Below, piece by piece: positions 19,623-40,722 of a stretch of 64,000 nucleotides of DNA (positions are counted from its first letter, which is position 1; every line of letters begins with the position of its first letter). The notes beneath the pieces were generated by a model. The model was not told the origin of the DNA. It saw only the letters and a program-made list of their open reading frames with translations, and made no database searches. The stretch lies in contig NZ_JAIVCC010000002.1 in NCBI RefSeq assembly GCF_020866905.1, positions 1 through 64,000 of the forward strand, written 5' to 3'. Origin of the DNA: Salinimicrobium sediminilitoris (GTDB lineage Bacteria; Bacteroidota; Bacteroidia; Flavobacteriales; Flavobacteriaceae). The position numbers were made by a program, and so were the translations under genes.

Positions 19623-20135
19623 ATGAGCCGCGGATTTGTAAAGGAAGAGGACCAGGAAGAAGCACCGTTTATTCCGCCACGTGCAGCCTTGCCTCCGGGA
19701 GTGACCAATTATGTTACTCCGCAGGGACACAGACAGTTGTTAGAGGAACGGGAAGAGCTGGAAAAAGAGAGGAAGAATCTTGATATAAGTAGCGATAAGG
19801 ATAAAAGACATGCTACAGCAGTGATAGACGGAAAGCTAAACTTGCTTAATGAACGGCTGGGTTCGGCACGTATTCTTAAACCTGAAGAACAACCAAAGGA
19901 CGAGGTGAGATTTGGTGCAACCGTTAGTTTTTACTTTTTACCGGGATCTCAAAAAGGAAAAGAACAATCTTTTACTATTGTGGGAGTAGATGAAGCAGAT
20001 GTAAAACAGGGGAAAATTGCCTTTTTAGCACCTCTCGCAAAAGCCCTCACCGGGAAAAAATCAGGAGAAACGGCAAAAGTCCAAATGGGAGGAGAGTTAC
20101 AGGAACTGGAGATCCTCACTATAAGTTACTTATGA
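19623..20135 (+). CDS. GreA/GreB-family transcript cleavage factor
   Basis: 170 residues from the ATG at 19623 (a GTG 24 bp upstream is also in frame). The protein has an extended N-terminus (RGFVKEEDQEEAPFIPPRAALPPGVTNYVTP), a coiled-coil region (about 40-85) and a C-terminal FKBP-like domain (about 95-168; VRFGATVSFYFLP, IAFLAPLAKALTGKKSGE). The extended N-terminus is found in a GreB-like subgroup. It should bind the RNA polymerase secondary channel to rescue backtracked complexes. Its stop overlaps the start of the next gene (ATGA), implying translational coupling to a sugar-metabolism enzyme. Confidence 0.85.
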   Translation: MSRGFVKEEDQEEAPFIPPRAALPPGVTNYVTPQGHRQLLEEREELEKERKNLDISSDKDKRHATAVIDGKLNLLNERLGSARILKPEEQPKDEVRFGATVSFYFLPGSQKGKEQSFTIVGVDEADVKQGKIAFLAPLAKALTGKKSGETAKVQMGGELQELEILTISYL

Positions 20136-22042
20136 TTCGGCAGAAAGTATATATAGTAATGGGTGTCTCGGGAGTTGGCAAAACTACTATCGGAAGACTA
20201 CTGGCAAAGCAGCTGGAAATACCCTTTTTTGACGCCGATGATTTCCACCCTAAAGAAAATGTAGAAAAAATGGAAGCCGGGATTCCCCTTAAAGATGTGG
20301 ATCGCCGGGAATGGCTGGAGAATCTTGCTTTAAAAATTACCGAATGGCAGGGGAAATCGGGCGCTGTTCTGGCATGTTCAGCCTTAAAGGAAAAGTACCG
20401 GGAACAGCTGAAGGTCCTGCCGCAGGAGGATATTAGGTGGATCTTTTTGCATTCGGATTATGATGTAATTCACAAAAGGATTACCGGCAGGAAAGGTCAT
20501 TATTTTAAGCCGGAGCTGCTGCAGTCGCAGTATGAAACCCTGGAACTGCCTTCCTATGGAATTCATATTGATGTGGATCAATCTCCCGAACAAATAATAA
20601 GTGAGATCATGGAAAATTTGAAGAAAAAAGCTGAAATAGGTCTTTTTGGTCTGGGAGTGATGGGACAAAGTCTCGCCATTAACATGGCTTCAAAAGACTA
20701 CAAGGTTGCGGTTTATAACCGGCACGTGGATAAGATCGAGGTCGATATAGCTAAGAATTTTGTTTCAGAAAACACTGAAATGAATTTCGAAGGGTTTGAT
20801 GAGCTTAAGACTTTTACTCAAAGCCTCGAAAGACCCAGAAATATCCTGCTCATGGTGAATGCCGGGAAAGTGATCGATTTTGTCATTGAAGATCTGCTTC
20901 CTTACCTGGACAAAGATGATCTCATTATTGATGGTGGAAATTCCCATTATAAAGATACCATCAGGAGAGAAAAGGAACTAAAGGAAAAGGGGATCTTGTT
21001 TATGGGCGTGGGAATTTCGGGTGGAGAAGAAGGAGCAAGAAAAGGACCTTCCATCATGCCCGGCGGACCTAAAAGTTCTTACAAAAGAGTAGGGCCTATC
21101 CTGGAGAAAATTTCAGCACGGGATAAATATGGAGATCCATGCTGTACTTACATTGGACCAGATGGATCTGGTCATTTCGTTAAGATGGTACATAACGGCA
21201 TTGAGTACGGAGAAATGCAGGTCATTGCCGAAACCTATCATTTATTAAGATTCCACACCGGTCTAAATCCCCTGGAAATCACTGATCTTTTTGAAGAGTG
21301 GAACCGGGAAGTACAAAGTTATCTTCTGGAAATTTCAATTGACATTCTTCGGAAGAAGGAAGATGAAACGTTTTTACTCGACAACATCCTTGATGCAGCT
21401 AAGCAAAAAGGCACAGGCGGATGGTCCACCAATGCTGCTTTGGAACTGGGAGTACCACTGGATACCATAAGTGCTGCAGTAATGGCAAGAAATATTTCCG
21501 GGATGAAAGAAAGCCGCACAGCGGCTGCGAAAGAATACGAATCACAAATTTTAGAGAAAGGAAAGATAAAAGAGCTGAGAAATGCCCTTTTTGAAGCTTT
21601 TAAGGCATCAAGTATTATTAATCACGCTATTGGATTTGATCTGCTTTCAATAGCTTCTAAAGAATACAGCTGGAACTTTAACCTTTCTGAAATTGCGAGG
21701 ATATGGACCAATGGATGCATCATAAGAAGCAAACTAATGGAAGACTTGGTTGAAAAATTCAGAGATCATCAACAGCATATTTTAATGCATCCCGACATTG
21801 TTCAGGAAATATCAACATACAGGAAGTCCCTGACCAAAATAGTGGGAGAAGCTTTAAATGCCGGCTTTCCTGTACCGGTGATGAGTGCAGCGGCAAATTA
21901 TCTGCTAAGTTTTACTACTGAACAGTCATCGGCCAATATGATCCAGGCGCAGCGGGATTATTTTGGTGCTCACACCTACGAACGAAAGGATAAACCCAGA
22001 GGAGAGTTTTTTCATACGGAGTGGAAACCTGATAGAAATTAG
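20132..22042 (+). CDS. Gluconokinase / 6-phosphogluconate dehydrogenase fusion
   Basis: This single 636-residue frame joins two enzymes. Residues 1 to about 165 are a GntK-type gluconokinase: Walker A GVSGVGKTT (11-19), FFDADDFHP, ACSALKEKYR, GRKGHYFKPELL. From about 167 a full-length Gnd follows: GLFGLGVMGQSLA with the NADP-binding GxGxxG (173-178), IDGGNSHYKDT, GSGHFVKMVHNGIEYGEMQ with the catalytic Lys, and a helical C-terminal domain. Together they would convert gluconate to 6-phosphogluconate and then to ribulose 5-phosphate, CO2 and NADPH. Both active sites look intact. The linker is only a few Lys-rich residues. The gene overlaps the greB-like gene by 4 bp. Confidence 0.93.
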   Translation: MIRQKVYIVMGVSGVGKTTIGRLLAKQLEIPFFDADDFHPKENVEKMEAGIPLKDVDRREWLENLALKITEWQGKSGAVLACSALKEKYREQLKVLPQEDIRWIFLHSDYDVIHKRITGRKGHYFKPELLQSQYETLELPSYGIHIDVDQSPEQIISEIMENLKKKAEIGLFGLGVMGQSLAINMASKDYKVAVYNRHVDKIEVDIAKNFVSENTEMNFEGFDELKTFTQSLERPRNILLMVNAGKVIDFVIEDLLPYLDKDDLIIDGGNSHYKDTIRREKELKEKGILFMGVGISGGEEGARKGPSIMPGGPKSSYKRVGPILEKISARDKYGDPCCTYIGPDGSGHFVKMVHNGIEYGEMQVIAETYHLLRFHTGLNPLEITDLFEEWNREVQSYLLEISIDILRKKEDETFLLDNILDAAKQKGTGGWSTNAALELGVPLDTISAAVMARNISGMKESRTAAAKEYESQILEKGKIKELRNALFEAFKASSIINHAIGFDLLSIASKEYSWNFNLSEIARIWTNGCIIRSKLMEDLVEKFRDHQQHILMHPDIVQEISTYRKSLTKIVGEALNAGFPVPVMSAAANYLLSFTTEQSSANMIQAQRDYFGAHTYERKDKPRGEFFHTEWKPDRN

Positions 22043-22198: not shown

Positions 22199-24775
22199 CT
22201 ATTTTTCCGAAAGAACGAATTCTAAAGTATCTACAATATCCCCATATTGATCCACCTTGATTTCGAATTCTACTGCTTCAGGCATTGCTTTATACCCTAG
22301 CTTCTGCAGCTGTTCAGGATCAATTTCCGCAGTGTATTTCCCTGGAGCAAGTCCGAGATAACTAAAGTATCCATCGCCTTCACTCAGAAGCTCAGCTGCT
22401 TTTTGCCCTTTTTGGTCCAGAATATTGATTAAGATCCTGCCCTGGCCGCTAATTTTGTTACCGTGGTTAAAATATACCATTCCGCCAACTTCTCCCAGGA
22501 CTTCTACAGGAACGAAGATCTCTTTGAAGTGGTTAGGCTGGGTTTTCACGAGGATCTTCGAATTCGGGATCTTCCAGGCAATATTGTCAAGACTTACAGG
22601 ATCTAATTCAAGGAGAAGATCAATATAGGGCTGTAGTTCTGTTATACGAAGAATCGTTTCATCTTCATTATATGTAACGCGGCCACTTCGGTTTTTAAGT
22701 TCAAGACCGGGTACTCCAGGTTCCATAGGATCTTTGACTCCGTTGTGGTTTAGATCCAGGAACGGAATTACCGTAATCGCCGCTCGTGACATGGCAGTGC
22801 GATTGCTTGCCATTACATAACCCGTATTGTCATCGAGCATTAAGCTTCCCCTGGCCGATTGTACAAAAGAGGAATTTCTATTTCCAATTCGTGAAGTGGC
22901 CGAAGTTTGTGCAAAATTGAACGCATAGCGCAGTCCCACTTCAAAAATATGAGCATCCCGTAAAAAGTTGTTCTCGTAGGCGAGATTCAAGAATCCCTGC
23001 CGAAAAACCGGACGTTCCACTTCCAGGATAAGATTGTTAAATCTTTCCCGACTAAAATCGTACTGGATTTGAGGAGAAAAAAGGAATTTATAAGGCAGAC
23101 GGTAAGTTTGGGATAAGGAGCTGTACAAAGTGGGCTCGTCCATACGATCGTTGTAAAGGCCGTAAGTTGTAAAGTTAGTGCTAATACCAAACAGTGCACC
23201 CGATAGCAATAGCTGGGCTGTTGTAAACTCGGTAGTGGGCATAATGATCTGGTTCACGCTAAAGCGGCTAAACATGGAGAAATATCTGGTGCGAACAGGA
23301 GTAGAAAGACTTACTTTTCTTTCCTCCAGATAATTAAAATTTATCGCCGTCTGGTCCTCATTATAATTAATATAATTAAGGTCTACCTGAATATTTCGTG
23401 GAGAGCGATAACTTAAAAGAGCTTCACCTTTGACGCCGTACATGTATTCTCCCGAGAACAATAAACCTGAAGCAATACGCATGGAGGAATTGACGAAAGG
23501 CATGACCTCACCACTGGTAACTTCAGAAAGATATTCCACCCCACCACCAATAGTAATAGCATTATTCAGTCCATAATTAAGATTCACCCTGCTAAAGCGA
23601 TTCCAGTCTTCATTTTCAACAATTCCCGCACTTAAAGTATATTCCAGTTCATTTTTCGGAACAAAATTATAGGGTATATTGATCACACGATCTTCAATGC
23701 GTTCTTCTCCCCAGGGGCCGTAGAAACGAAGACTCACTGCAGTATTCCCATACATAAGCGGCACTTCAAAACTGTAGAACCCTGAAGCATCTGCCTCGGT
23801 GAAAGCCACCAGGACATTATTTACATAAAGCTCGACCGTCCAGCGCGGTTCGGTGTAGTCATTAAGGAGGTAAGTTCCAAATGAGCGTCGGTTTTGCAGC
23901 GGACTATTAGTGATCTGTACTCCCGAGACTGGTGCAAAGAGGGAAGAAGTGGCTCTGGAGAAAATACGTCCAGCAGTTACCTGTGTCAGGTATTTGTTGT
24001 CATTATTCACATAGCGCCACTGGTAAAACTGGTTACGTGATGAAAATGGCAACCTGCTCGAATAGTTCAACATTAAATTAGTTTCCCCGCCCAGGAACAT
24101 AGTTCCCAGCCCCAGCATAAGTCGGTTATCATTTTCAAAATCGGTTTGTTGTGTGGTAACCACGCCCCAATCGAGAGTTCCCGGCTTGAAAAATGGATAT
24201 CGCGCAGGAATTAAAGTATCGGGCACGACCACTCCTTTCACCCTGTCAAGATTTTCCCTCATCATTTGCAGGCGCATTTCCTTTATCACAGGCAACTCCT
24301 TATCTGTTTCCAGTTCCACGGAAAGACTTCGGAAAGAAAAGTTTGTATTAAGGTCAAAGATCTCCCCGAATAGATCTGAATGCAAATATCTCTCAGAAGG
24401 AGTGACTAAAATGTCATTTTTGGAAAGGCTGAAGGTTTTTCCTTTATAGACGATCTCTGGTCTTTGCCAATTAATAGTATAAGAAGAATCAGGATGAATG
24501 ATAAATCCGCTGAGAATCTCGTTATTGGTTTCATGCTTGATCTTTAGAAGATCAAAAAGCACTTCAACGGGTAAATAGGCATCTTCTCCTTTAATAGCAA
24601 TGGGAATTTCATAAGTTCCCAGCCTTGAAATGTTCATTTCAACGCCTAGTTCATCATAATCTTGTTGGAATTGCTGAGCTGTTGCCACTGAAGTGAATAA
24701 CCCAAAAAACAACAAAAAACAGATGTGAGAAATTTTTGCTGAGAAAAATATTTTTTTGGGGGAAGTAGTTGGCAT
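22199..24775 (-). CDS. Usher-like outer-membrane assembly protein
   Basis: This 858-residue protein has a signal peptide (about 1-33), an N-terminal periplasmic region (about 35-190) and a long barrel-like region (about 195-640). Inside it, ELYVNNVLVAFTEADASGFYSFEVPL (about 315-340) matches the stretch around the usher plug of FimD/PapC-type proteins, followed by VINIPYNFVPKNELEYTLSAG. The C-terminal part has an Asp-rich calcium-type motif DLNHNGVKDPMEPG (about 672-686) and a CnaB-like domain (about 770-845). It is the last gene of the cassette, after the chaperone and subunits. The usher role (subunit secretion and fibre assembly) is inferred from sequence and context together. Confidence 0.75.
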   Translation of the reverse strand: MPTTSPKKIFFSAKISHICFLLFFGLFTSVATAQQFQQDYDELGVEMNISRLGTYEIPIAIKGEDAYLPVEVLFDLLKIKHETNNEILSGFIIHPDSSYTINWQRPEIVYKGKTFSLSKNDILVTPSERYLHSDLFGEIFDLNTNFSFRSLSVELETDKELPVIKEMRLQMMRENLDRVKGVVVPDTLIPARYPFFKPGTLDWGVVTTQQTDFENDNRLMLGLGTMFLGGETNLMLNYSSRLPFSSRNQFYQWRYVNNDNKYLTQVTAGRIFSRATSSLFAPVSGVQITNSPLQNRRSFGTYLLNDYTEPRWTVELYVNNVLVAFTEADASGFYSFEVPLMYGNTAVSLRFYGPWGEERIEDRVINIPYNFVPKNELEYTLSAGIVENEDWNRFSRVNLNYGLNNAITIGGGVEYLSEVTSGEVMPFVNSSMRIASGLLFSGEYMYGVKGEALLSYRSPRNIQVDLNYINYNEDQTAINFNYLEERKVSLSTPVRTRYFSMFSRFSVNQIIMPTTEFTTAQLLLSGALFGISTNFTTYGLYNDRMDEPTLYSSLSQTYRLPYKFLFSPQIQYDFSRERFNNLILEVERPVFRQGFLNLAYENNFLRDAHIFEVGLRYAFNFAQTSATSRIGNRNSSFVQSARGSLMLDDNTGYVMASNRTAMSRAAITVIPFLDLNHNGVKDPMEPGVPGLELKNRSGRVTYNEDETILRITELQPYIDLLLELDPVSLDNIAWKIPNSKILVKTQPNHFKEIFVPVEVLGEVGGMVYFNHGNKISGQGRILINILDQKGQKAAELLSEGDGYFSYLGLAPGKYTAEIDPEQLQKLGYKAMPEAVEFEIKVDQYGDIVDTLEFVLSEK

Positions 24776-24789
24776 TAATTTTCTTGCGG

Positions 24790-25293
24790 CTATTCGTGAA
24801 TAAATGTTATTGTAAACATTGCATTATAACTTCCGGCGGGACCTGAGCTACCATTTGGAATTTTTAATTGTCCACCTACAAGAACCTCGTGGGGATTTTG
24901 AGTTGTTATAAAAGTTTGCCCGGTGCTTATATCTCTATTTGGATCAATGGTTAAAGTGACATCACTACCAGAAGGTCCTTCCAGAGGAAAATCATAAACT
25001 CCCTGGATCTGTAGGAGAGTACCCGGATTTACATATACGTCAAAGATCGCATAATGAGAAGGCTGTCCCACATTCAACAAATGTACATCTGAATCACCCG
25101 TGCGATTACCGTTTGGACTCATAAAAACATTTCCACCGTTAGTTCCTACTGTGAATGATCCAAAATTTAAACCCTGGGCATTTCGTACTTCAACAGTTAC
25201 TGGAATAGGTGGATTTTCCTGTGCAGCTACTTCAGAATAAACTATACTGGAGAGGCTCAAAAACATGAATATGAAATAGCTTTTTCCAGTCAT
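24790..25293 (-). CDS. DUF4402-like fibre subunit (copy 4)
   Basis: This 167-residue secreted protein has a signal peptide ending near VAAQ (about 25). The LNFGSFTVGTNGGNVFMSPNGNRT stretch is the DUF4402 signature (FG ... GG.V..SP.G.R). It ends in the alternating strand GSYNAMFTITFIHE, with Gly 14 residues from the end and a penultimate His where the other copies have Tyr. The gene is 3 bp after the T9SS protein and 14 bp before the usher-like gene. Its position and divergence suggest a minor subunit, perhaps base or adaptor. Confidence 0.7.
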   Translation of the reverse strand: MTGKSYFIFMFLSLSSIVYSEVAAQENPPIPVTVEVRNAQGLNFGSFTVGTNGGNVFMSPNGNRTGDSDVHLLNVGQPSHYAIFDVYVNPGTLLQIQGVYDFPLEGPSGSDVTLTIDPNRDISTGQTFITTQNPHEVLVGGQLKIPNGSSGPAGSYNAMFTITFIHE

Positions 25294-25296
25294 TCT

Positions 25297-28200
25297 TTAT
25301 TCTTTAATAATTACTTTTTTGGTTTGGCTTTCATTTTCAGTTGTCAGCGTTACCAGGTACATCCCTGAAGCCGTAATTCCGCTAAACCTGACTTCCTCTT
25401 TTCCAGATCCGGATTTGCTTTGAATGACCTGTCCTGACATATTACTAAGAATAACTTTTCCTTCTTCATAGTACGGAAGGTTCAGTCTTACCACAAATTC
25501 TTTGTTCTCATTGAAAACGGCAAAATCTTCCATAGCCATTGCTATTTCTGCAGGAGATAATTTTTCCGAAGAAAACACCAAAACAAAACGATCATTGTTT
25601 TCCCCTTTTTGAGAGGTAAAAGAATATTCAGGATCCCTGGCAAGATCTTTCAGGATTTTCTTTTTGTTGTCCTTCAGATAAATGTGAAGAGAGGGGAAAA
25701 GGTTTGTAGCTTCGGAAAGAACAAGTCTCATTTCACCAGATCTTTCAGCACTTATCCCAAGAGGAATTTCCATTGCTTCGGTGTTGAGACTGGATACAGC
25801 ATTAATAGAAAGTTTTTCCTTTTTTGAACTCAAACTATACAGACTGGGAACATTAACAGCCGTATTTAGGATTTTTTGAGCATCTATTTCTTTTTCAAAT
25901 TCGGGAGTTCCTCCATTTCTGAAATAAATTACTGTCGCATCTGAATTTTCTTCATTTTCAAAGCCTGCAGATAACCGAATTTGAGGAACTTCAGCTTTAT
26001 TTTTGGCCTTGTAATAACTATGAGAAACCTGATTTCCGGTTCTTGCAGCGTTGGTAAATTGCAGATTAGCCGTAGCAGGATAAATCCCATTATCAGGATC
26101 ACTTACCCTCACAAAAAATCCCTGCATGGATGGAATTATACCTGAGGCAGGATCTGTAGAAACTCCGTCCACGTAAGATATATAAGTTCCGGTGTATCTG
26201 TTATCGGCGCTTGCTTTAAAAAAATGGATACCATTATCAATGCCTTCAAGATCTTCAACCATTAAATCCCAATCTAAGGGCGAAGGGTAGGGGTTCCCCA
26301 CCAGATTAAAGCCATTGGTATAGGTGCCATTGTTATTTTCGAGAGTTACATCTATAGGACCATCATTAACAATTCCTGATAGCTCCAGAGTTAAAGCATC
26401 GGTCGCTCCACTTGTATTAATCGCATATCCAGTACCCGGATTTAAAGGTGCAGCCAGATCCAAATATTTTTGCCAGCCTGTGAGGTCATTTTCTTCATCG
26501 TACGTTCTGTTTTCAAAATATTCATAAAGGTGAGGAAAACCGGTTTCAGAATTTGTGAGATCAAAATTGGCCGCAAGATCATCCACCGTAGAATTTTGGA
26601 AGGGAGTGCTGAAATATTTATAGCCAAAAGCATTAGAAAGGTAACGTTGCAGTGTAACAGTTCCGGAAACCTGTCCTGTGCCGCTGCCATCAATATAAGC
26701 GGTTCCTGTTTCACCAGAAACCAGAGTGAGGCCATTACCGGTGTAAAATATTCCTGCTTCTACCTTTAAAGAATTGATGATCTCTATAGTAGCTTCGGAA
26801 GTAACTCCGGCGGAGTTATCAATATTTAAGTTTAAAATTCTGTCATTCTCGAAAGCTCCTGCAGGAATAGTTTGTGCTGAAGCTCCCTCAAAGGAAATAC
26901 TTCCGGCAGAGGCATTTAAATAATTATCATTAGTTAAAGTCCCGGTTATTCTTAACCAATTATCTATAACAGTAACAGAAGCTCCGGTTTCAATAATAAG
27001 ATTTTTTGAAAGCGCATTACTTCCAGTGCTTACCACCGGATACTTGTTTAAGTTCGCAGGAATAGTAACATTCGTACTCAAAGTAGGAAGGGAGTTACAA
27101 CTCCAGTTATTAATATTATTCCAGTTGGTGTCTTCTGCACCGGTCCATTCCGACTTGTTTATAATACTTATAGTTATATGTGAAACTATACTAGTACACC
27201 CGCTGGCATTACTAACAACAAGCGAATAGTCTCCTGCCTTTGCCTGGCTGGCATTTGGAATAACAGGATTCTGTGTACTTGAAGTAAAACCGTTAGGTCC
27301 TGTCCATTGATAAGTACCTCCTGATATAGAAGAATAAAGCTGGATATCGCTTCCTTCACATACCGGGGAATTGCTTGATAATACAGGAACAGGTAAATTA
27401 TTTACTACCACATTAGTCCTCTGGGGATTACTGCTACAACCATTGGCATTAGTAACAACAAGCGAATACTCTCCTGCCTTTGCCTGGCTGGCATTTGGAA
27501 TAACAGGATTTTGTTCACTTGAAGTAAAACCATTAGGTCCTGTCCATTGATAAGTACCTCCTGGAATGGTGGAAGAACTAAGTTCAATACCACCTCCCTC
27601 ACATACGGGGGAATTGCTGGATACTACTGGAACAGGTAAAGTAATTACTGTTAGAAGCACCTTCTTTGAAATGGAAATTTTACAAGCCGAATTCGTTGGA
27701 TCGGAAGGTCGTACAACTACCCTAAAAAGTTTACCACTGTCTTCTACTGAGGTATTAGAAATTGTATAACTATAACTATTTGGATTGTTTTCTACCACAA
27801 CCCAATCTGTAGATGCAGTTTTTTCCTGCCACTCGTACTTAACGGCAGCATTAGTAATTTCAGCAACACTAAAAATGACCTGAGCACCCTCACAAACCTC
27901 CTGATTAGAAATCGAAGTTAGATCATAACAGTTTACTGCATCTTTATATTCTTCAGGAAAATCTTCAAAATTATCTTCAAAATTGTCCCCGGTTCCATAA
28001 TCACAAGCCTCTGTTCCCAATTCTGACACATTGCCTTCATAGTCAGTACAGGTATCAAAATTACTCCACTTTTCATCAACCTCACCAAAAATGTAGATAT
28101 TCCCATTAGTAGCGTCAATTTCGGCTTGCCCGCTTCCTGTTTTCTGAGAAAAGTCACCATACACTATTAGAAAACTGGAAACAGAAATATTAACCTGATT

Positions 28201-28503
28201 ATGTGCTATAAAATTTCCATACACTACTACTAAAGCGTCAGGACCCATTATAAATTGAGAATTATTACCGTCCATTACCAGGTTCCCATTAACTATGAGC
28301 GTTCCATTTACTTCAAGAACAGAGCTATTATTCTTTAATGTCACATTTTGATAGGTCTCTTTCTCTCCCCCTGGAATGACCCAACCACCTTTTCCAACAT
28401 CCAGGTCTCCTACCTGAGCCGATAAAAATGAAGTAAGAAACATCGCCGCCCACAAGACGGCAATTCTTAAAAAATTAATAAACCTGGGGGAGTTTTTTTT
28501 CAT
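25297..28503 (-). CDS. Large T9SS-sorted Ig-repeat surface protein (adhesin candidate)
   Basis: This 1068-residue secreted protein has a signal peptide (about 1-30), a region of repeating short beta strands (about 35-145; LEVNGTLIVNGNLVMDGNN style), an Ig-like domain (about 195-290) and two near-identical 80-residue Ig/PKD-like repeats (about 291-450, each with PVCEG...GGTYQWTGPNGFTSS). A WTGAEDTNWNNINNWSC module and another beta-rich region follow. It ends with a type A T9SS sorting domain (about 1000-1068; GMYLVTLTTENESQTKKVIIKE). The domain directs export by PorT/Sov-type T9SS and surface anchoring. It starts directly after the chaperone stop codon (TAAATG). Confidence 0.8.
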   Translation of the reverse strand: MKKNSPRFINFLRIAVLWAAMFLTSFLSAQVGDLDVGKGGWVIPGGEKETYQNVTLKNNSSVLEVNGTLIVNGNLVMDGNNSQFIMGPDALVVVYGNFIAHNQVNISVSSFLIVYGDFSQKTGSGQAEIDATNGNIYIFGEVDEKWSNFDTCTDYEGNVSELGTEACDYGTGDNFEDNFEDFPEEYKDAVNCYDLTSISNQEVCEGAQVIFSVAEITNAAVKYEWQEKTASTDWVVVENNPNSYSYTISNTSVEDSGKLFRVVVRPSDPTNSACKISISKKVLLTVITLPVPVVSSNSPVCEGGGIELSSSTIPGGTYQWTGPNGFTSSEQNPVIPNASQAKAGEYSLVVTNANGCSSNPQRTNVVVNNLPVPVLSSNSPVCEGSDIQLYSSISGGTYQWTGPNGFTSSTQNPVIPNASQAKAGDYSLVVSNASGCTSIVSHITISIINKSEWTGAEDTNWNNINNWSCNSLPTLSTNVTIPANLNKYPVVSTGSNALSKNLIIETGASVTVIDNWLRITGTLTNDNYLNASAGSISFEGASAQTIPAGAFENDRILNLNIDNSAGVTSEATIEIINSLKVEAGIFYTGNGLTLVSGETGTAYIDGSGTGQVSGTVTLQRYLSNAFGYKYFSTPFQNSTVDDLAANFDLTNSETGFPHLYEYFENRTYDEENDLTGWQKYLDLAAPLNPGTGYAINTSGATDALTLELSGIVNDGPIDVTLENNNGTYTNGFNLVGNPYPSPLDWDLMVEDLEGIDNGIHFFKASADNRYTGTYISYVDGVSTDPASGIIPSMQGFFVRVSDPDNGIYPATANLQFTNAARTGNQVSHSYYKAKNKAEVPQIRLSAGFENEENSDATVIYFRNGGTPEFEKEIDAQKILNTAVNVPSLYSLSSKKEKLSINAVSSLNTEAMEIPLGISAERSGEMRLVLSEATNLFPSLHIYLKDNKKKILKDLARDPEYSFTSQKGENNDRFVLVFSSEKLSPAEIAMAMEDFAVFNENKEFVVRLNLPYYEEGKVILSNMSGQVIQSKSGSGKEEVRFSGITASGMYLVTLTTENESQTKKVIIKE
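27205..27563 (-). repeat. Two 119-bp near-identical direct repeats within the adhesin gene
   Basis: 27205-27323 and 27445-27563 are near-identical direct repeats offset by 240 bp (80 codons), differing at only a few bases. They encode the conserved part of two consecutive Ig-like domains. Such DNA identity points to recent duplication or ongoing conversion and could allow the copy number of this domain to vary by recombination. Confidence 0.9.
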
Positions 28504-29322
28504 TTAGTTCAGGGGAATTTCTTTTGTAGCTAAAGTTTTTCCTATGTCTTCAGAATAACTTACTCTAAGTTTCCCGGTGCTCAAATCCGCTTCCCCGGCA
28601 CTTCGTAATTCAAAGGAAAAGATTCTTTTTTTGTTCGGAGTATAAACAGAAACTCCTTTCACCATTCCTACTTCGGTAGTGACTCCTTCAGGGGAAACAT
28701 GATCTACTTTAATGTTGCCATATACCGACATGTTGCCCGACCTATTAATCACCAACGAAAGCTTGGGATTTTCACCTTCAATGTTTAAAGAAATATCAGA
28801 TAAATTAATTTGTGTAGTAGATGCTCCTTCTCTAATAATAATTGGAATACTTATTCCAAAAACGGTTTTGATGTTAATTGATATTCCTTCCGCTTCCTTG
28901 GCTTCTTCCTGTCCTAATGCAGTTTGCTCTTCTACAGCCCTAAAATACATATGAGAACGGTATTCTCCCTGTTCCAGATTTCCTGTTCGGGTAACCTGTA
29001 CTCTAATAGTTTGTGCTTCGTTAGGAGCAAGGGTAACCCGGCGGGGGAAATATCGAAGATTACCTTCTGCAAATCGCTGACCTTCCTCAGGAGAATCGAC
29101 CTGTTCGAAATTTCCACTTTCTGTCATCTTATAATTGACAAAAGAAATAGCATAAACAGCAGTATCACTTCCTGTATTTGCAAGATTGATCTCCTGAGAT
29201 CTTTGAGAACCGTCAAAAACCAGCCTCTTGGGCATGATCATTAGATCTCCCTGAGCAAGAGAAATTGTTGGAAAGAAAAATAATAGTATAAGAACTGAAA
29301 ACTGTAGTAATTTTTTATTCAT
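28504..29322 (-). CDS. PapD-like periplasmic chaperone
   Basis: 272 residues from the ATG at 29322; a GTG 30 bp upstream is in frame but would displace the signal peptide (MNKKLLQFSVLILLFFFPTISLAQ). The mature protein begins GDLMIMPKRLVFDGSQRSQEINLANTGSDTAVYAI, the G1/A1-strand pattern of PapD-type chaperones with a basic residue before the strand. NEAQTIRVQVTR and KTVFGISIPIIIREG give the end of domain 1, and a second Ig-like domain follows to the C-terminus. It should bind subunits in the periplasm by donor-strand complementation. It lies after DUF4402 copy 3 and immediately before the T9SS protein. Confidence 0.8.
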   Translation of the reverse strand: MNKKLLQFSVLILLFFFPTISLAQGDLMIMPKRLVFDGSQRSQEINLANTGSDTAVYAISFVNYKMTESGNFEQVDSPEEGQRFAEGNLRYFPRRVTLAPNEAQTIRVQVTRTGNLEQGEYRSHMYFRAVEEQTALGQEEAKEAEGISINIKTVFGISIPIIIREGASTTQINLSDISLNIEGENPKLSLVINRSGNMSVYGNIKVDHVSPEGVTTEVGMVKGVSVYTPNKKRIFSFELRSAGEADLSTGKLRVSYSEDIGKTLATKEIPLN

Positions 29323-29403
29323 GCGGGGGCTGAATTCTATTGGATTTTTCACCTAACACAAATGTAAGTAAAAGAAGACAAGATCGTTAAGGATATCTTA
29401 AAA

Positions 29404-29898
29404 TTAATTATAGGACACTGTGACATTAAACCCTGAAGAATTTGTATAGAAGCCTGCGGACTGGTTGGCTTCAAGGTTTAATCTTGCTCCAATTTTAATT
29501 ATGTCAGAAATTACGCCTTCCTCTGGAGCTACAGTGAATTGATCTATGATTAATTGTTGATCGGGATTTTCACTGTTGAAAAGAATAAAGGACTCAGGAA
29601 GGGTAATAGAATAATTATTGTTTCCATGAGTAACCACGGCCTGAGCAGGATTCACAGTACCGGGAAAGGAAGAAGATATTTGTACTCCGTATGCTACTCT
29701 TGAACCTTCTGGCGTTAAAATCACTGTCCCGGGATTATAGGCAGAGATCACATTTCCGAAATCCAAATCTACAGTCTTATCAATTTTAATAGGATCTATT
29801 ACTGTAGCCCGGCTCTCCACCGTTGCCGAAGCTGATGCCTGCGCAAATGTTTGCGTGGAGATCAGCAGGAAAATAAATAAGCATAAGACTTTATTCAT
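29404..29898 (-). CDS. DUF4402 fibre subunit (copy 3)
   Basis: This 164-residue secreted protein has a signal peptide ending TFAQ (about 19). It contains the DUF4402 pattern: SATVESRATVIDPIKIDKTVDLDFGNV, then NPGTVILTPEGSRVAYG, and a final strand GFNVTVSYN with penultimate Tyr and Gly 16 residues from the end. It lies 81 bp before the chaperone start (29322) and probably begins the assembly-gene transcript, downstream of the terminator that follows copy 2. Confidence 0.85.
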   Translation of the reverse strand: MNKVLCLFIFLLISTQTFAQASASATVESRATVIDPIKIDKTVDLDFGNVISAYNPGTVILTPEGSRVAYGVQISSSFPGTVNPAQAVVTHGNNNYSITLPESFILFNSENPDQQLIIDQFTVAPEEGVISDIIKIGARLNLEANQSAGFYTNSSGFNVTVSYN

Positions 29899-29937
29899 TT
29901 GGGTTGTTGGCGGTTAGTTAAACAAGATAAGCAAAAT

Positions 29938-29965
29938 CAAAAAACGCCGCCACAAGGGCGGCGTT
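29938..29965 (-). terminator. Strong terminator after DUF4402 copy 2
   Basis: The GC-rich stem AACGCCGCC/GGCGGCGTT (29943-29951 and 29957-29965) has a 5-nt loop, and on the minus strand it is followed by a T run. It lies 24 bp past the copy 2 stop and before copy 3, so it limits read-through from the subunit gene into the assembly genes. Confidence 0.88.
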
Positions 29966-29988
29966 CTATATAATTTAAATAAAATTAT

Positions 29989-30495
29989 TTATTCGTAAGA
30001 AACAGTTACTGTTGCAGTTCCAGTGTATTCACCAGCATCCTGCCCACCATTTACAAGAAGGTCTCCACCAACTAATAAAGTCTGTTCGGCACCGGAACCT
30101 GCATTACCTTCGTCCTTCATATTGTGTTCAAAATTAACAGTCATGTCATCTCCAGCACCTTCTAATTTAATAGATGGAATTGAAATAGAGTATAGATACT
30201 CATTTTCAGCAGTTATTTTGAAAGCTGCTGCACTTGGTAATGAAGTTGTGGTTGGTGCATTGAGATCATTATTATCAAAACTTCTTTCCCCTGCAGTAGA
30301 AACAGTAACAGTACCACCTTCTGCATCTCCAATAATTCTTCCAAAATTAAGAACAGAACCAGAAGTGATTTCGATTGGGCTAATTATTTCAGCATTCACT
30401 GTTGCAGTACCGGTAGCTTTATTTGAATCATTGTTGGTTTGTGCAAAAGTAGTTCCGGCGATAAGAGCGAATAAAATAAAAGTAATTTTTTTCAT
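29989..30495 (-). CDS. DUF4402 fibre subunit (copy 2), probable major pilin
   Basis: This 168-residue secreted protein has a signal peptide ending TFAQ (about 19). DUF4402 features: ATGTATVNAEIISPIEITSGSVLNFGRI, AEGGTVTVSTAGERSF, and the closing strand GEYTGTATVTVSYE with penultimate Tyr and Gly exactly 14 residues from the end. This is the arrangement of the chaperone-recognised C-terminal strand of classical pilins. It is monocistronic: a consensus promoter lies 60-90 bp upstream and a GC-rich terminator follows. That layout suits an abundant subunit. Confidence 0.87.
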   Translation of the reverse strand: MKKITFILFALIAGTTFAQTNNDSNKATGTATVNAEIISPIEITSGSVLNFGRIIGDAEGGTVTVSTAGERSFDNNDLNAPTTTSLPSAAAFKITAENEYLYSISIPSIKLEGAGDDMTVNFEHNMKDEGNAGSGAEQTLLVGGDLLVNGGQDAGEYTGTATVTVSYE

Positions 30496-30555
30496 GGTAA
30501 GTAGGTTTTTAGGGGTATGTAAATATTAATTTGGGTTTCTAATTATTTAACGGGG

Positions 30556-30587
30556 CAAACATACTCCCTAAGGAAAGCTCCTACAAA
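30556..30587 (-). promoter_or_regulatory. Consensus promoter for DUF4402 copy 2
   Basis: On the minus strand, TTTG (30584-30587), 20 nt, then TATGTTTG (30556-30563) match the Bacteroidota -33/-7 consensus exactly. The predicted leader is about 50-55 nt. Confidence 0.78.
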
Positions 30588-31055
30588 AAAAGTCGATAAG
30601 GGCGGCAGAAATTCGTTGAAATGCACATTATTAGATTTTTTTTGGAATCTGAAGCTCTTTTAAAGATAGCCTGGAAGGTAATTCTCACGATAATTTGCAC
30701 AAAAGGAGGAAATTTGCCCCGTATAAACCTCCTATTAATAAAGGCTGGGACTATTTCTTGTTTTAGAAGATCCTTTTTGGAACACCTAACCTTGTTTCGG
30801 CTGGAAATAAAATGAATAGTTCAGTATAAAACAGTGTGCTTTTATCGCTCCCTGCTGGAGGAATTAACAGGAAATGTCATCAACATTAATAAAAAGGATT
30901 AGAACATGTAGGTAGGGCAGTAGACTTCATTTAAAAATGAGGCTTAAGCAGGTTGAAAAAACCAATCGTTGCACCAATAAAAAATTAGTTGAACTACATA
31001 ATTAAAAAAAATCCAGGGAATTAGAGGAGTAGTAATATTGATTATTACCAAAGGA
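30588..31055. other. Intergenic region within the fibre cassette, no gene seen
   Basis: About 470 bp between DUF4402 copies 1 and 2 beyond the promoter. It is AT-rich, has no convincing coding frame on either strand, and shows only a weak hairpin GTAATA/TATTAC at 31032-31048 just past the copy 1 stop. The large gap separates copy 1 from the rest of the cassette. Confidence 0.6.
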
Positions 31056-31559
31056 TCAATTGTAATTAACAGTGACGTTCATAGGTGACCGACTGTTGTA
31101 AATGCCCGGCGTTTGGTTTGGATTAACCTTTAAGGTTGCTCCGACCCTTACAATTTTTGAGCCTCCGGTGAGACTTCCACCATTGGCGAGACTACTTGTA
31201 AAATCCTTTATGATCATGCTTTCGCTGCCGTTAGCCAGTAAAAATTCATCTTTGGGAAGACTTATAGAAAAAGCAAATCCTTCTTCTCCTGTTACCTCAA
31301 AAGATGCGGCAGAAACTGCAGCATTTTCGGCCAGGGCTACGTCACCTGTACTTATCCTGGTATTCTCGGGGGTGAGAATTACTGCTCCTCCAGATTTGGC
31401 ATCGAGATTGGCGAAGTTCATGTTTGAAGTAGTGGTAATTCCAATAGGCTGAATAATGGTAGCCGAAGCAGTAAAGGAAGCTGTGGCACTGGTTTGTCCA
31501 TATGACATACCGGTCCCGGATAACAGTATTATTAGCATTAGAATAAAAACCTTTTTCAC
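31056..31559 (-). CDS. DUF4402 fibre subunit (copy 1)
   Basis: This 167-residue secreted protein has a signal peptide ending SYGQ (about 21). The DUF4402 pattern is clear: ATASFTASATIIQPIGITTTSNMNFANL, SGGAVILTPENTRIS, then GASLK-type strands and a closing strand MNVTVNYN with penultimate Tyr and Gly 16 from the end. It is the most upstream subunit gene of the cassette and is divergent from doxX. No consensus promoter was found; the 31560-31727 gap is AT-rich. Confidence 0.85.
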   Translation of the reverse strand: MKKVFILMLIILLSGTGMSYGQTSATASFTASATIIQPIGITTTSNMNFANLDAKSGGAVILTPENTRISTGDVALAENAAVSAASFEVTGEEGFAFSISLPKDEFLLANGSESMIIKDFTSSLANGGSLTGGSKIVRVGATLKVNPNQTPGIYNSRSPMNVTVNYN

Positions 31560-33380: not shown

Positions 33381-36300
33381 TTGGAAACAAAAAAAAATCA
33401 AAAGGAAAAAAAGAAAAGAGGTTCAGGCTTAAAATTATTTTTTAAGATCCTGCTCGGGATTTTTATCTTCATTTTTCTTTTATTACTCTTCATTCGCAGC
33501 CCATGGGGACAGGGAATTATTGTAGACAAACTTGTAAACTACATTACTAACAAAACTAATACAGTGGTAGAGGTCGACCGACTTTTTATCACTTTTGGCG
33601 GAGATTTAAGTTTGGAAGGTCTTTATATGGAAGATGAAGAAGGGGACACATTAATATATAGCAGGGAACTTCAAGCCGATATTTCATTAATGCCACTTAT
33701 AAAAGGTAAAGGTTTTTATCTCAATAGCCTGGACTGGAACGGAGGAATAGCAAATATTGATCGAACAGATACCATTCAGGGTTTTAACTTTGATTTCCTG
33801 ACGGAAGCCTTTGCAACGGCCGACACTACTGCTACCACAACACCTGTAGATACTACTGCTTCTGCGATGGAAGTTAGGTTGGGGGATATCAACATTGAAA
33901 ATTTCAGGCTTACCTATGATGACAAGTACCTGGGAATTGACACCAAAGTCGCCCTGGGACGTTTGCTGCTTGAGATGCAGAAATTCGAGTTGGACAGCAT
34001 GCGTTTTGAAGCCGGAGATGTTATCCTGAAAAATACCCGCTTCAAATATGCCCAAACCAAACCTGCTCCCGATTCTCCGCAGGAAGACACGATCCCATTA
34101 CCTTTTTTGTCTGCCGAAAACCTGAAGCTAAATAACGTTGCCGGATCCTACACCTCTGTTCCCGACGGTATTGTAGCCGATGTGGATATAAATGACCTGT
34201 ACCTCGAATTACCCGCAGTAGATCTGGAAAATACACTTGTCGTTATCGATCAACTTGATTTGAACGATTCAAGAATATATCTACAAACAAAAACCACAGC
34301 TATTGCTGAAGCAGAACAACAAACTGCTTCAGATTCTACAGCGACCGAAGGTTTCGAATGGCCGGAATGGGAGGTAAAAGCTCAGGATTTAAGTATTCAG
34401 AATATAGATTTCAGGTACTGGGTTGATGACAGCAGGCCAACTCCCGGCACGTTCAATCCTGAAGCTGTTGGACTTAAAGACCTGGATCTAAAAATCCCGG
34501 AGCTTATTTTGGCAAATCAATCTCTTGAAGCCAAAGTAGAAGCTCTTAATTTCAGGGAAGCTTCAGGATTGGACTTGAGTAGAACAAATTTTGTCGCCAG
34601 CATCAACGAAGATAGAATGCTGTTGCAGGATCTACTTCTCAAGTTAAATGGCAATATGGTGGAAGGAAGTTTGGTGATTGATTATCAATCTCTCAATTCT
34701 TTTATTGAAAATCCTGAAAATGCGACCGTGGATCTTAACCTTCCACGATTTGATGTGGATCTACAGGATTTGTACAGGTTCCAGCCAGATCTTCAGCAGA
34801 ACGAATACATTGCCGAACTTGCCAAAAAAGACCTTTCCGGAAGTCTTTTTGCCAGTGGAGAATTATCGAAAATATCTATTGAGAGTGCGAATATAAACTG
34901 GGGCAATACTGCGCTTTCATCCACGGGTGGTACTATTTATAATGCCACAGATCCAGATAATTTAAGATTTGATCTTCCACAACTTAAATTTAACTCTTCC
35001 CGGGCCGATCTTAGTGGCTTTTTAGAACCTCTGGACCTTGGAATCCAACTTCCTGAAAAAATAAGTTTATCGGGAAATTTCAGTGGAACACCAGAAGATA
35101 TATCTGTTGATGCGATCCTCAATTCTTCCGCAGGAAAAATCGATGTGGATGGACGATTTGTCACCGCTCCGGAAATTGCTTTCAACGCAGATCTTAAGGT
35201 TACTGAGTTAGAACTGGGACAACTCCTTCAGAATAAAGCCCTGGGGTCTATTAGTATGCAAATGGAAGCTTCGGGTTCAGGAGCCAATTTAAATGAACTG
35301 GATGCCATGGCCGATGGAAATATTTCCAGCTTCACCTATAATGATTACCAGTTTGAGGATATTGAACTTTATGCCGAACTAGAGGACGGCGATGGTTTTG
35401 CCAATGTAGATTATAAGGATGAAAATCTTAACATGGAGCTCCAAAGCTTTGTGGAACTGGATTCTGTCGCCCCAAAAGTGGCTTTAAACCTCAATCTTAT
35501 TGGAGCCGATTTACAAGCGCTTGGTTTAACTAACAGACAAATCAATACGGGACTTGATCTTAGAGCAACTTTTGAAGGTAACGCTGAAAGTTTTGACATG
35601 GTGGGAAGCATTAATGAAGGGGTTTTTGTATATGATGATGAAACTTATCTCTTGGGGTCTGTCGACCTTCTTACACATGTGAGACCCGATACTACTTCCA
35701 TTGATGTTGACAACCGTATGCTCGATCTTCGGCTAAGTTCTAATGCCGGGCCCATGGATTTTATAAATGCTCTTGACAGGCATTATCAAAGCTATTACAG
35801 CGTAGAAAATCAGCTGGATACGGTTCAAAATCCTGTCAATATTGAATTACGAGCAGAAGTTAGTCCATCCCCAATTCTGGAAGATGTTTTTCTTCCGCAG
35901 TTAGAAGAAATGGACACATTAAAAGTAAGAGTGGATTTTGAAGAGAAAACCAGAGAGCTCGCGGCTCAGGTAAGTCTGCCTTATGTAAATTACTTTGGGA
36001 GTGAAATAGACAGTCTGCAGTTCAATATGGCTTCAGACAGAGAGAAACTTGCTTTTGATTTTGGTTTAAAACGTCTAAATACAGGACCACTGGCTATTAA
36101 AGAGACCATTTTGGAAGGGGAACTGGTAAATGAAGAGCTATTACTGGATTTCACTTCCAATTATGAAGGCGAACGCCTTATGCATTTTAGTTCCCTGGTA
36201 TCCAAAGTAGATGATGTGCTTAGAATTCACATTGATCCCGAAGAACTCATCCTGAATGCTGCGCCCTGGGAAATAGACCCCGACAATGCTATTTTAATTG

Positions 36301-38414: not shown

Positions 38415-38415
38415 C

Positions 38416-40722
38416 ATGTCAAAAAAGGCATTTTTAGGACTTACTTTATTTTTAGCTATTTTTTTGCTGCAGGCTTGCAGCGTCAAAAAATTTATCCCCG
38501 AAGATGAATTATTATATACTGGAGCAGATATTGAACTCGATTCTCAGGATGAGATAGCAAACAAAAAAGATCTTAAAAATCAGCTACAAACCTTACTTAC
38601 TCCTTCACCAAATGCAAAATTCCTGGGCACGCGGTGGGGATTGTACTTCCACTATAAAGCACAGAAGGAGAAACCGGGGTTTATAAATAAATTTCTGAAT
38701 AGAAAATTCGGGGAAGAACCGGTTTATCTTTCAGATGTTGATCCCTATCATACAGAAGAACTACTTAAAAACCGGTTAGAGAACAGGGGGTATTTTTACA
38801 GCACGGTTGATTTCACTCTGGAAGAAAAGAGAAAGCAGAAGTTAGCTTCTATTTCATATCACGCTACACTTCCGGAGGAACCTTATGTGCTCGAAAAATA
38901 CAGAATGGATAATGATTCCCTCAGGATCTATAGGGAGATCAAGGAAACCCTTTCAGAATCTCTTATTGATGAAGGAGAACCTTTTAATCTTTCTGTTCTA
39001 AAGTTGGAAAGGGAGCGAATAGATATTGCTCTAAAAGAACGTGGTTATTACAACTTCAGTAATAACTTCCTCATCTTCGAATCTGATACCAATCAATATG
39101 ACCGCAAGAAGTTCGATCTTTTTTTACGCCTTAAGAAGCAGGTGCCGGAGGAAGCGATTAAACCCTACAAAGTGAAACGGGTTAATATTTATCCTAACTA
39201 TGCAATTGGCACCGATTCTATTGACCGGGACACAGTACGATATAACGGCAGGAACTACATCCAGAATGAAGTCTTCTTTAAACCCGAAAAATTAGATCCT
39301 TATATATTGATTAAAGAAGGGGAGCTCTACAGCCCGACTGAATCGGGAAGGACAAGTAGACGCCTCACTTCCCTGGGAACTTATAAATTCGTGAACATAA
39401 GGTATGACGTTTTAGATTCAATTTCTACCGATAGTATAGGTTACCTGGAAGCGAATATCTTCCTGTCACCACTCAATAAAAGATCAATACGTGCAGAATT
39501 ACAGGCCGTTACCAAATCCAACAATTTCGCAGGACCACACCTGGCATTGACCTACACCAACCGGAATCTCTTCCACGGGGGGGAAATTCTTAAACTCACG
39601 GGGAAAGTTGGCTACGAACAACAACTTTCTGCCGATTCGGATGTTGGAAATACCAGTATCATCCTGGGATTAAATTCAGATTTTATTATTCCCAGAATGC
39701 TTTTTCCAATAATTGAGATAAATAGCAACTGGTTCGAATATTCCATTCCAAAGACAAAAATAAGTGCGGGATTTGAATATCTTAATCGAACTGGCCTCTT
39801 TAACCTGTTTTCGGTTTCAGGGAGTTTCGGCTACATTTGGAAAGCCAACAGGTACATTACTCACGAATTGAATCCTTTTTCGGTTGACTACGTGCAGCTA
39901 AATGAATCGGACAGATTTGGAGAAATTCTTAAAGAAAACCCTTTCCTCGCAAGTAGTTTTGATCAACAATTTATAGCGGGTCTTACTTATTCATTTATTT
40001 ATAATGGAATGGTAGATGCCAGTGATACTCACCAGTTTTTCCTAAATGCCAACCTGGATCTAACAGGGAATATTCTGGATGCATTGAGCGGCGGAGAGAC
40101 TCCCAAGACCTTCCTGGGCCTCAGGTTCGCACAGTACGCAAAAGCCGATGCCGATTTTCGTTATCATTTTAAACTAAGCCCTGAGCAAACCATTGCCACC
40201 CGATTATTTGCCGGACTCGGAGTTCCTTACGGGAATTCTGATGTTATGCCTTTCAGCCGTCAATATTTTGCCGGAGGACCTTACAGCATCAGGGCCTTTC
40301 AAATTAGATCACTTGGTCCCGGAACTTACAAACCACAGGGAGATCTTTCCTATTATGATCAAATGGGAAATATAAGATTGGAGGCCAATGTGGAATATCG
40401 CTTCCCCATCTTCCAAATCTTAAAAGGAGCTGTATTTGCAGATGCAGGAAATGTCTGGAATACCGAAAGAAATAATCTTCCTCCCGGGGATGAATTGACA
40501 GAGCAACAGGAAGAGCTTATTGAAAAAGGTACTTTTAGTTCAAACTTTTTAAATGAGGTTGCAGTAGGGGCAGGAGTAGGACTAAGGGTTGATATTCAAA
40601 GCTTCGTCATAAGATTTGATCTTGCGGCACCCTTGCGCATTCCGTGGCTTGAAGAAGGGGACCGTTGGGATCCAAGACTTACAGAGCCGGTATTTAACTT
40701 CGCAATTGGATACCCGTTCTAA
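38416..40722 (+). CDS. tamA: TamA/BamA-family outer-membrane protein
   Basis: 769 residues from the ATG at 38416. This start gives a lipoprotein-type signal ending LLQACS (Cys about 21); earlier in-frame starts overlap tamB and spoil it. Periplasmic POTRA-like domains (about 25-400) are followed by an Omp85 barrel, with SRQYFAGGPYSIRAFQIRSLGPGTY carrying the conserved loop-6 (VRGF/Y-like IRAF) and a C-terminal strand ending FNFAIGYPF with terminal Phe. It partners TamB in outer-membrane biogenesis. N-terminal acylation is typical of the Bacteroidota version. Its last 4 bp overlap the convergent upp gene. Confidence 0.9.
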   Translation: MSKKAFLGLTLFLAIFLLQACSVKKFIPEDELLYTGADIELDSQDEIANKKDLKNQLQTLLTPSPNAKFLGTRWGLYFHYKAQKEKPGFINKFLNRKFGEEPVYLSDVDPYHTEELLKNRLENRGYFYSTVDFTLEEKRKQKLASISYHATLPEEPYVLEKYRMDNDSLRIYREIKETLSESLIDEGEPFNLSVLKLERERIDIALKERGYYNFSNNFLIFESDTNQYDRKKFDLFLRLKKQVPEEAIKPYKVKRVNIYPNYAIGTDSIDRDTVRYNGRNYIQNEVFFKPEKLDPYILIKEGELYSPTESGRTSRRLTSLGTYKFVNIRYDVLDSISTDSIGYLEANIFLSPLNKRSIRAELQAVTKSNNFAGPHLALTYTNRNLFHGGEILKLTGKVGYEQQLSADSDVGNTSIILGLNSDFIIPRMLFPIIEINSNWFEYSIPKTKISAGFEYLNRTGLFNLFSVSGSFGYIWKANRYITHELNPFSVDYVQLNESDRFGEILKENPFLASSFDQQFIAGLTYSFIYNGMVDASDTHQFFLNANLDLTGNILDALSGGETPKTFLGLRFAQYAKADADFRYHFKLSPEQTIATRLFAGLGVPYGNSDVMPFSRQYFAGGPYSIRAFQIRSLGPGTYKPQGDLSYYDQMGNIRLEANVEYRFPIFQILKGAVFADAGNVWNTERNNLPPGDELTEQQEELIEKGTFSSNFLNEVAVGAGVGLRVDIQSFVIRFDLAAPLRIPWLEEGDRWDPRLTEPVFNFAIGYPF

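Follow-up and report, generated by a model that had tools for sequence, protein, structure and literature searches.

The DNA analysed here, referred to as the window, comprises 64,000 nucleotides from Salinimicrobium sediminilitoris (contig NZ_JAIVCC010000002.1, positions 1 to 64,000). Between positions 22199 and 31559 it contains a cassette that very probably encodes a chaperone-usher fibre set, the fibre being known here from its genes and their predicted folds. The encoded machine appears to be of the same kind as that of type 1 pili, with an usher that lies outside PF00577 by sequence and with previously undescribed subunits of the DUF4402 family. The direct evidence comprises the gene set, the predicted folds of the usher and of subunit A, conservation and distribution; from these we infer donor-strand exchange, the identity of the tip, attenuation and formation of a fibre.

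The cassette consists of seven open reading frames (ORFs), all located on the minus strand and all present as listed in a preliminary description of this DNA. They are transcribed in the order subunit A, subunit B, subunit C, chaperone, large immunoglobulin (Ig)-domain protein, subunit D and usher. The gaps, most of which had been given as 1–15 bp, are this short for half of the junctions only: three out of six measure 0–14 bp (usher/D, 14 bp; D/large protein, 3 bp; large protein/chaperone, 0 bp). The longer ones are found between chaperone and C (51 bp, or 81 bp if the chaperone starts at its ATG), C and B (90 bp) and B and A (560 bp). The closest named relatives belong to Salinimicrobium, Salegentibacter and Gillisia.

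Usher, chaperone and DUF4402 subunits

The ORF at positions 22199–24775 (minus strand, 858 aa) is predicted to encode an outer-membrane usher with a 24-strand barrel that is interrupted by an Ig-like plug after strand 6. An AlphaFold2 model based on a 32-row alignment has a mean predicted local distance difference test (pLDDT) score of 84.8. By our own count it displays 24 barrel strands (aa 196–647), with a six-strand sandwich (aa 298–367, positions 23675–23884, minus strand) inserted between strands 6 and 7, as judged from the strand order. The barrel is flanked by an N-terminal domain (aa ~41–180) and by C-terminal domains (aa ~660–858). FimD and PapC likewise possess a 24-strand barrel with the plug between strands 6 and 7. 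In a Foldseek search with the model, every one of rows 1–17 is a FimD or PapC structure, with E from 2.9e-27 to 1.9e-13. Structural alignment with VIA-align gave 9fw9_D as best match (Z 24.1, root-mean-square deviation 7.8, 598 aligned), and rows 1–15 are all ushers with Z-scores of 24.1–20.6, compared with 16.0 for the best non-usher barrel among the matches listed. The preliminary description had proposed a profile-profile comparison for this ORF, which yielded 96.9% in hhalign against six E. coli K-12 ushers; the barrel slice by itself reached 94.2%, and column-reversed decoys at most 1.4%. The protein is thus predicted to be an usher with a plug and not an unrelated barrel, its N-terminal domain being present in the model and unmatched to known ushers.

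Searches with the single usher sequence gave no match, neither with phmmer against the PDB sequences nor in NCBIfam. In Pfam, weak matches to SdrD_B, CarboxypepD_reg and SpaA are confined to the C-terminal part. Matches of the usher alignment to SdrD-, NOMO- and Bap-like PDB sequences (best E 6.3e-8) also lie in this part and were rejected as unrelated. Since the SdrD_B/CarboxypepD_reg label stems from the C-terminal part, it explains the misannotation of these ushers.

The ORF at positions 28504–29352 (minus strand; start codon ATG at 29322 or GTG at 29352) encodes a putative periplasmic chaperone, PapD-like according to PapD_N and hhalign and apparently of a non-classical type. The preliminary proposal of a two-domain PapD-like chaperone finds support in hhalign, where its profile matches that of six E. 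coli chaperones with 89.0%, chiefly over domain 1, though the PapD_N match (E 0.0012, 19.3 bits) stays below the cut-off of 23. The same domain exceeds its cut-off in three out of five proteobacterial relatives of the chaperone. Classical chaperone-usher chaperones carry a basic anchor pair in domain 1, Arg8 and Lys112 in PapD numbering. This pair is not found in the window protein, where the Lys aligns with Pro, and the first Arg is unconserved across the family.

According to a paper on non-classical chaperones (PMC4654587), the corresponding pair of Caf1M is Arg20/Lys139, and the anchor of non-classical chaperones is formed by an Arg on strand F of domain 1 together with a Tyr and an Arg of domain 2; the residues given are Arg89, Arg174 and Tyr196 in CsuC and Arg89, Arg148 and Tyr169 in EcpB. 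Arg132 of the window chaperone aligns with EcpB Arg89, albeit at low overall probability, and sequences of other classes have an Arg two residues later. In domain 2, Tyr237 is kept in 28/29 rows of the alignment and Arg204 in 27/29, both also in 5/5 proteobacterial relatives. By eye, Arg204 is situated directly before an SGN motif, away from the position of EcpB Arg148. Judged by these residues, the window chaperone looks non-classical-like. WxLIP_HBD, a domain of WxL-interacting proteins from Gram-positive bacteria, matches 6 of the 29 chaperones at E <= 0.01; distant kinship or a common Ig fold are possible explanations.

The four remaining small ORFs encode DUF4402 proteins. All four pass the PF14352 cut-off and, as had been described, show by eye a signal-peptide-like start, and the reported lack of a lipobox is confirmed inasmuch as none of the four signal peptides ends in Cys (by eye). 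All lie on the minus strand: subunit A at 31056–31559 (PF14352 E 6.5e-24), B at 29989–30495 (E 1.8e-22), C at 29404–29898 (E 3.9e-18) and D at 24790–25293 (E 4.1e-13). At E <= 0.001 they are the only PF14352 matches in the whole genome. Subunit A, with signal peptide, N-terminal extension and penultimate Tyr, ends in VTVNYN, B in VTVSYE and C in VTVSYN; D, the candidate tip, has neither extension nor penultimate Tyr. B, encoded before a hairpin described below, is a candidate major subunit. No function is assigned to DUF4402 in Pfam, and no mention of DUF4402 or PF14352 was found in the open-licence PubMed Central (PMC) literature, a scope outside which subscription papers and preprints fall.

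For subunit A, an AlphaFold2 model built from a 39-row alignment (pLDDT 90.5) displays a pilin-like fold. The chain ends on the last strand, and residues 14–39, including the N-terminal extension, are devoid of a strand. The model thereby predicts an Ig sandwich that lacks a strand after F, i.e. an incomplete Ig fold. In Foldseek, rows 1–40 are all chaperone-usher subunits (best E 3.3e-3), as are the best 50 of 348 rows (Z >= 2) after re-alignment with VIA, with Z-scores of 7.7–5.7. A search of the DUF4402 alignment against the PDB sequences gave nothing significant (best E 0.66).

Within 17 loci of the same class as the window, the penultimate Tyr is present in 42/42 subunits encoded upstream of the chaperone vs 0/16 D-type subunits; outside these loci it is found in 46/56 upstream subunits. 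The two groups also differ in the distance between the predicted mature end and an LxFG motif, with a median of 25 residues in upstream subunits (n=40) vs 17 in D-type subunits (n=16) of the same-class loci. The mature end was set by a heuristic signal-cleavage rule that left two rows without distance, and three distances of 43–52, probably wrong calls, add to the contrast. Subunit B of the window was left out of the subunit and locus counts, an antisense ORF standing in its place. In chaperone-usher pili, a subunit without N-terminal extension sits only at the distal end. Lacking this extension and with it a donor strand, D fits a tip subunit, which we infer it to be.

Between B and C, a terminator-like hairpin (positions 29941–29967, minus strand) with an 11-pair stem and a T-rich tail was identified. 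A perfect hairpin occurs at the same place in 11/13 loci, in three of them (L007, L008 and L010) after correction for upstream start calls; that of L012 is imperfect and L059 has, by eye, a different one. In the region as a whole, promoter-like sites are at chance level (24 vs 26.4 expected) and terminator-like sites near it (12 vs 9.8 expected). For this reason weight is placed on the recurrence of the hairpin in relatives, which suggests that it probably acts as an attenuator favouring A and B.

Distribution and alternative readings

In a sample of 395 genomes of the phylum, the usher alignment matches 81 genomes and PF14352 matches 63. The proposed survey of co-occurrence confirmed that the parts belong together: 59 of the 63 DUF4402 genomes also have the usher (overlap counted by eye from two genome lists), and genes for a chaperone and a DUF4402-like protein adjoin the usher in 34/35 loci, with the remaining one cut off by the contig end. 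The genomes entering a Fisher test of this association are interrelated, and its p-value is not a chance probability; the 20 distant loci studied were selected out of the 81 genomes with an usher match. In three out of four further usher loci (L097, L099 and L100), DUF4402-like, chaperone and usher genes follow each other in this order, and in the fourth, the partial contig L098, which has the usher, no DUF4402-like gene was seen.

The same gene order is found outside the phylum. Plasmids of alpha-, beta- and gammaproteobacteria carry DUF4402, chaperone and usher genes in this order in 5/5 annotated records of 6 found, namely in Polaromonas sp. E5S, Polaromonas JS666, Sphingopyxis indica, Novosphingobium sp. 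ES2-1 and Pseudoalteromonas xiamenensis; the sixth match, Novosphingobium THN1, is unannotated and was kept outside the count. Profiles of the window family match those of the proteobacterial ushers with 100% (E 4.7e-65) and those of the chaperones with 100% (E 1.2e-41). Four of the five annotated plasmid records call their usher carboxypeptidase-regulatory-like, and the fifth calls it hypothetical. In a FastTree phylogeny calculated for 40 ushers, the five from proteobacteria cluster together with a support of 1.000. The presence of the same set on these plasmids shows the branch to be wider than Bacteroidota, and an origin restricted to this phylum was rejected. The proposal of a separate chaperone-usher branch therefore stands as regards the set itself, its distance in sequence from classical systems and the co-conservation of its parts; its description as a Bacteroidota speciality does not. 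In open-licence PMC literature, searches combining chaperone-usher with Bacteroidetes, Flavobacteri or Sphingomona found no such system described in titles or the starts of abstracts among the matches listed.

Several observations weigh against the identification of a chaperone-usher fibre set. PF00577 (Usher), although it recognises the E. coli control, matches no protein of this genome and is absent from the families of 32 usher relatives among the matches listed (best 25 of 27) and from those listed for the five proteobacterial ushers. The usher alignment retrieved no usher from the PDB sequences. Compared slice by slice with the E. coli ushers, the N-terminal domain reaches 0.7%, the plug 0.2%, the second C-terminal domain 0.5% and the first, weakly, 28.9%; for the plug this is below its own reversed decoy (1.4%). 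Nor do the structural alignments cover the N-terminal domain: in the usher rows, the aligned part of the model begins at residues 183–199. Due to the poor match of slices beyond the barrel, the identification of the usher rests on barrel, plug position and whole-chain fold. Among the PDB sequences, the chaperone alignment ranks ricin (E 0.23) and HisF (E 0.33) ahead of PapD, whose match is insignificant (E 0.36). Single-sequence comparisons of chaperone with EcpB (15.9%) and of usher with EcpC (7.5%) are weak, and the cassette is accordingly left unplaced among the archaic, alternative and classical clades. For subunit A, Foldseek gave no match at E <= 0.001, the best Z-score of 7.7 falls short of 8, below which the tool itself advises caution, and the DUF4402 alignment includes, among its 39 rows, one sequence other than a subunit, a 202-aa ORF from L062. 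The D-type subunit of L012 has a long, Pro-rich N-terminus of 32 residues. Finally, four DUF4402 genomes, all of family f52, are without usher match, and 22/81 usher genomes are without DUF4402 match at E <= 0.001, often having divergent subunits.

Given the modest fold matches (Z <= 7.7) and a family without Pfam function, the DUF4402 proteins could instead be secreted or surface-coat proteins merely folded by the chaperone, or the barrel an ordinary porin or receptor, with no fibre being formed. However, known ushers stand far above the other barrels listed (Z at least 20.6 vs 16.0), the plug occupies the usher's place in the model, and the subunits fall into upstream ones with extension and penultimate Tyr and D-type ones without Tyr and, except in L012, with a shorter N-terminus. 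An arrangement without fibre is consequently considered very improbable. Within the chaperone-usher reading, the position of the gene for D next to the usher and its divergence from the other subunits would also suit an initiator, a terminator or a subunit that plugs the usher. Such roles for D are regarded as unlikely, since a chaperone-usher subunit without extension fits the distal end only, as stated above.

The large Ig-domain protein (positions 25297–28503, minus strand; Ig_2, Ig_7 and I-set above cut-off) had been counted as a member of the usher set. Its gene is indeed placed between those of chaperone and subunit D in 12 loci, window included, an arrangement that would suit a tip adhesin or another fibre component leaving via the usher. 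Its C-terminus, however, is a type-A sorting domain of the type IX secretion system (T9SS; TIGR04183, E 1.9e-11), and SprA_N is found above cut-off in the same genome (E 2.9e-134). Among its 11 relatives, eight were tested, in which the sorting domain is above cut-off in five, below in two and not found in one. The protein is missing from five related loci, in four of which (L012, L058, L059 and L063) subunit D directly follows the chaperone; the fifth is L062. Because of these five loci a core role of the protein was rejected, and the sorting domain indicates that it is most likely not usher cargo. Passage through the usher as part of the fibre is thus hardly to be expected, and the large Ig protein is a lineage-specific addition, probably exported by another machine.

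Genes adjoining the related ushers

In loci outside the window's class but of the same phylum, mostly of family f38, the usher can be followed by a FliG-domain protein of 617–695 aa, with FliG_M and FliG_C above cut-off in 6/6 examined. It is read as a membrane protein, the one inspected for this (L065) having two hydrophobic segments, and possibly as a FliF-FliG fusion, FliF_C matching below cut-off in 2/6. Genes for a lipoprotein-like TPR protein, MotA and MotB follow in this order, MotA being assigned by Pfam in the two loci tested and elsewhere by position and eye. The four MotB proteins tested carry OmpA and SPOR domains. Such sets are located at 11451–16177 in L065, 2793–7739 in L068, 3446–8240 in L069, 11012–16016 in L070 and 11038–16127 in L079, and at 85–3118 in L075, where the contig ends before MotA and MotB.

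The FliG-domain protein scores above 600 bits in 16 of the 395 phylum genomes, and in 16/16 it lies directly downstream of a DUF4402-type usher; since its alignment was built from six usher-adjoining loci, ten of these matches count as independent. A MotB_plug gene is present within 2 kb in 15 of the 16 loci, the remaining one being at a contig end. Moreover, all six motor-locus ushers examined possess a C-terminal TPR extension related to the lipoprotein of the operon, vs 0/29 others. FlhA was not found in 5/9 motor-linked genomes tested (G284, G173, G169, G185 and G320), implying that the motor set there is not flagellar; in the other four (G236, G437, G273 and G193), FlhA is present alongside a separate FliG of ~350 aa. 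In the window genome, no match to FliG, FlhA or MotB_plug was obtained. Open-licence PMC searches for FliG or MotA with usher, pilus and non-flagellated found nothing, and with Balneol only unrelated work among the matches listed.

These relatives possibly have motor-coupled chaperone-usher pili. If so, FliG-domain protein, lipoprotein, MotA and MotB would together make up a rotary motor, driven by ions, by which the pilus is turned or pulled, and in the lineage of the window the T9SS-exported Ig protein would take the partner role. In its widest form this leads to a tentative and rather doubtful proposal, namely that DUF4402 fibres make up a separate cross-phylum chaperone-usher branch whose ushers are wired to the cell envelope by swappable modules, either the FliG-domain/lipoprotein/MotA/MotB set or the T9SS Ig protein.

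Further features were observed in these loci and in the window. A second, usher-less set occurs in the same genomes (L095, 4667–9692, minus strand; L096, 8184–13234), made up of a FliG-domain fusion-like protein, a protein of ~361 aa, a lipoprotein-like protein, a MotA-like protein (by position and eye) and MotB. SPOR domains, which bind peptidoglycan, are found in 8/32 ushers and are fused to the usher in the f38 genomes L064, L067 and L073; in Pseudoalteromonas (L088, 7885–8520) a separate SPOR gene lies beside the usher. Membrane proteins that by eye resemble type IV minor pilins are encoded upstream of the subunit genes at 2818–5136 in L064, with equivalents in L066, L068, L069, L071 and L079, and the largest of them carries DUF4900 in L064 and L068. 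In the window itself, a single ORF at 20132–22042 combines a kinase-like domain (gluconate kinase by eye, SKI in Pfam) with 6-phosphogluconate dehydrogenase, and an equally long ORF adjoins the cassette in L005, L006 and L008. At 33381–40722, a TAM-like pair is encoded, consisting of a TamB-like protein and, after it, an Omp85 protein that matches POTRA.

Proposed assembly and comparison with known systems

According to the proposed mechanism, subunits A, B, C and D would reach the periplasm by the Sec route as incomplete Ig folds without strand G, where the two-domain chaperone would lend a strand to each. The usher would accept the chaperone-subunit complexes and thread the fibre through its plug-gated 24-strand barrel, while in donor-strand exchange the N-terminal extension of each incoming subunit would fill the groove of the preceding one. 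Subunit D, without extension and encoded beside the usher, would be exported first and form the tip. The hairpin after B would probably keep expression of the later genes below that of A and B. Exit via the T9SS is proposed for the large Ig protein, which may act together with the fibre at the surface.

Three circumstances seem to have hidden this chaperone-usher branch from annotation: the usher goes undetected by PF00577, DUF4402 is a family without function, and four of the five annotated plasmid records misname the usher. Its recognition would give DUF4402 a function, would add a pilus type of Bacteroidota beside type V pili and would provide a distant comparison for the evolution of ushers and of donor-strand pilins.

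With type 1 and P pili (FimD/FimC and PapC/PapD) the cassette shares the 24-strand usher with the plug at strands 6/7, pilin-like subunits and the gene set. In contrast to them, identity in the aligned parts is only about 10–12%, the usher falls below Pfam detection and the classical anchor residues are unconserved in the chaperone. Classical subunits, moreover, belong to the classical fimbrial family, unlike DUF4402. Parallels in the chaperone are offered by the archaic (Csu) and alternative (ECP) systems: like these, the cassette chaperone is devoid of the anchor pair seen in classical ones, and it shows an Arg in the strand aligned to EcpB Arg89 as well as a conserved Tyr in domain 2. On the archaic side, CsuA/B is among the better structural matches of the DUF4402 subunit. 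From ECP, however, the cassette is set apart by the lack of a convincing sequence match to EcpB or EcpC and by the position of Arg204, which differs from that of EcpB Arg148.

The type V pili (FimA/Mfa1) of Bacteroidia are likewise surface fibres of Bacteroidota. Whereas their subunits are lipoproteins, those of the cassette have no lipobox, and the cassette includes an usher and a chaperone. A further correspondence is seen in the proteobacterial plasmid sets, which have the same order of DUF4402, chaperone and usher genes, with no large Ig/T9SS protein annotated there.

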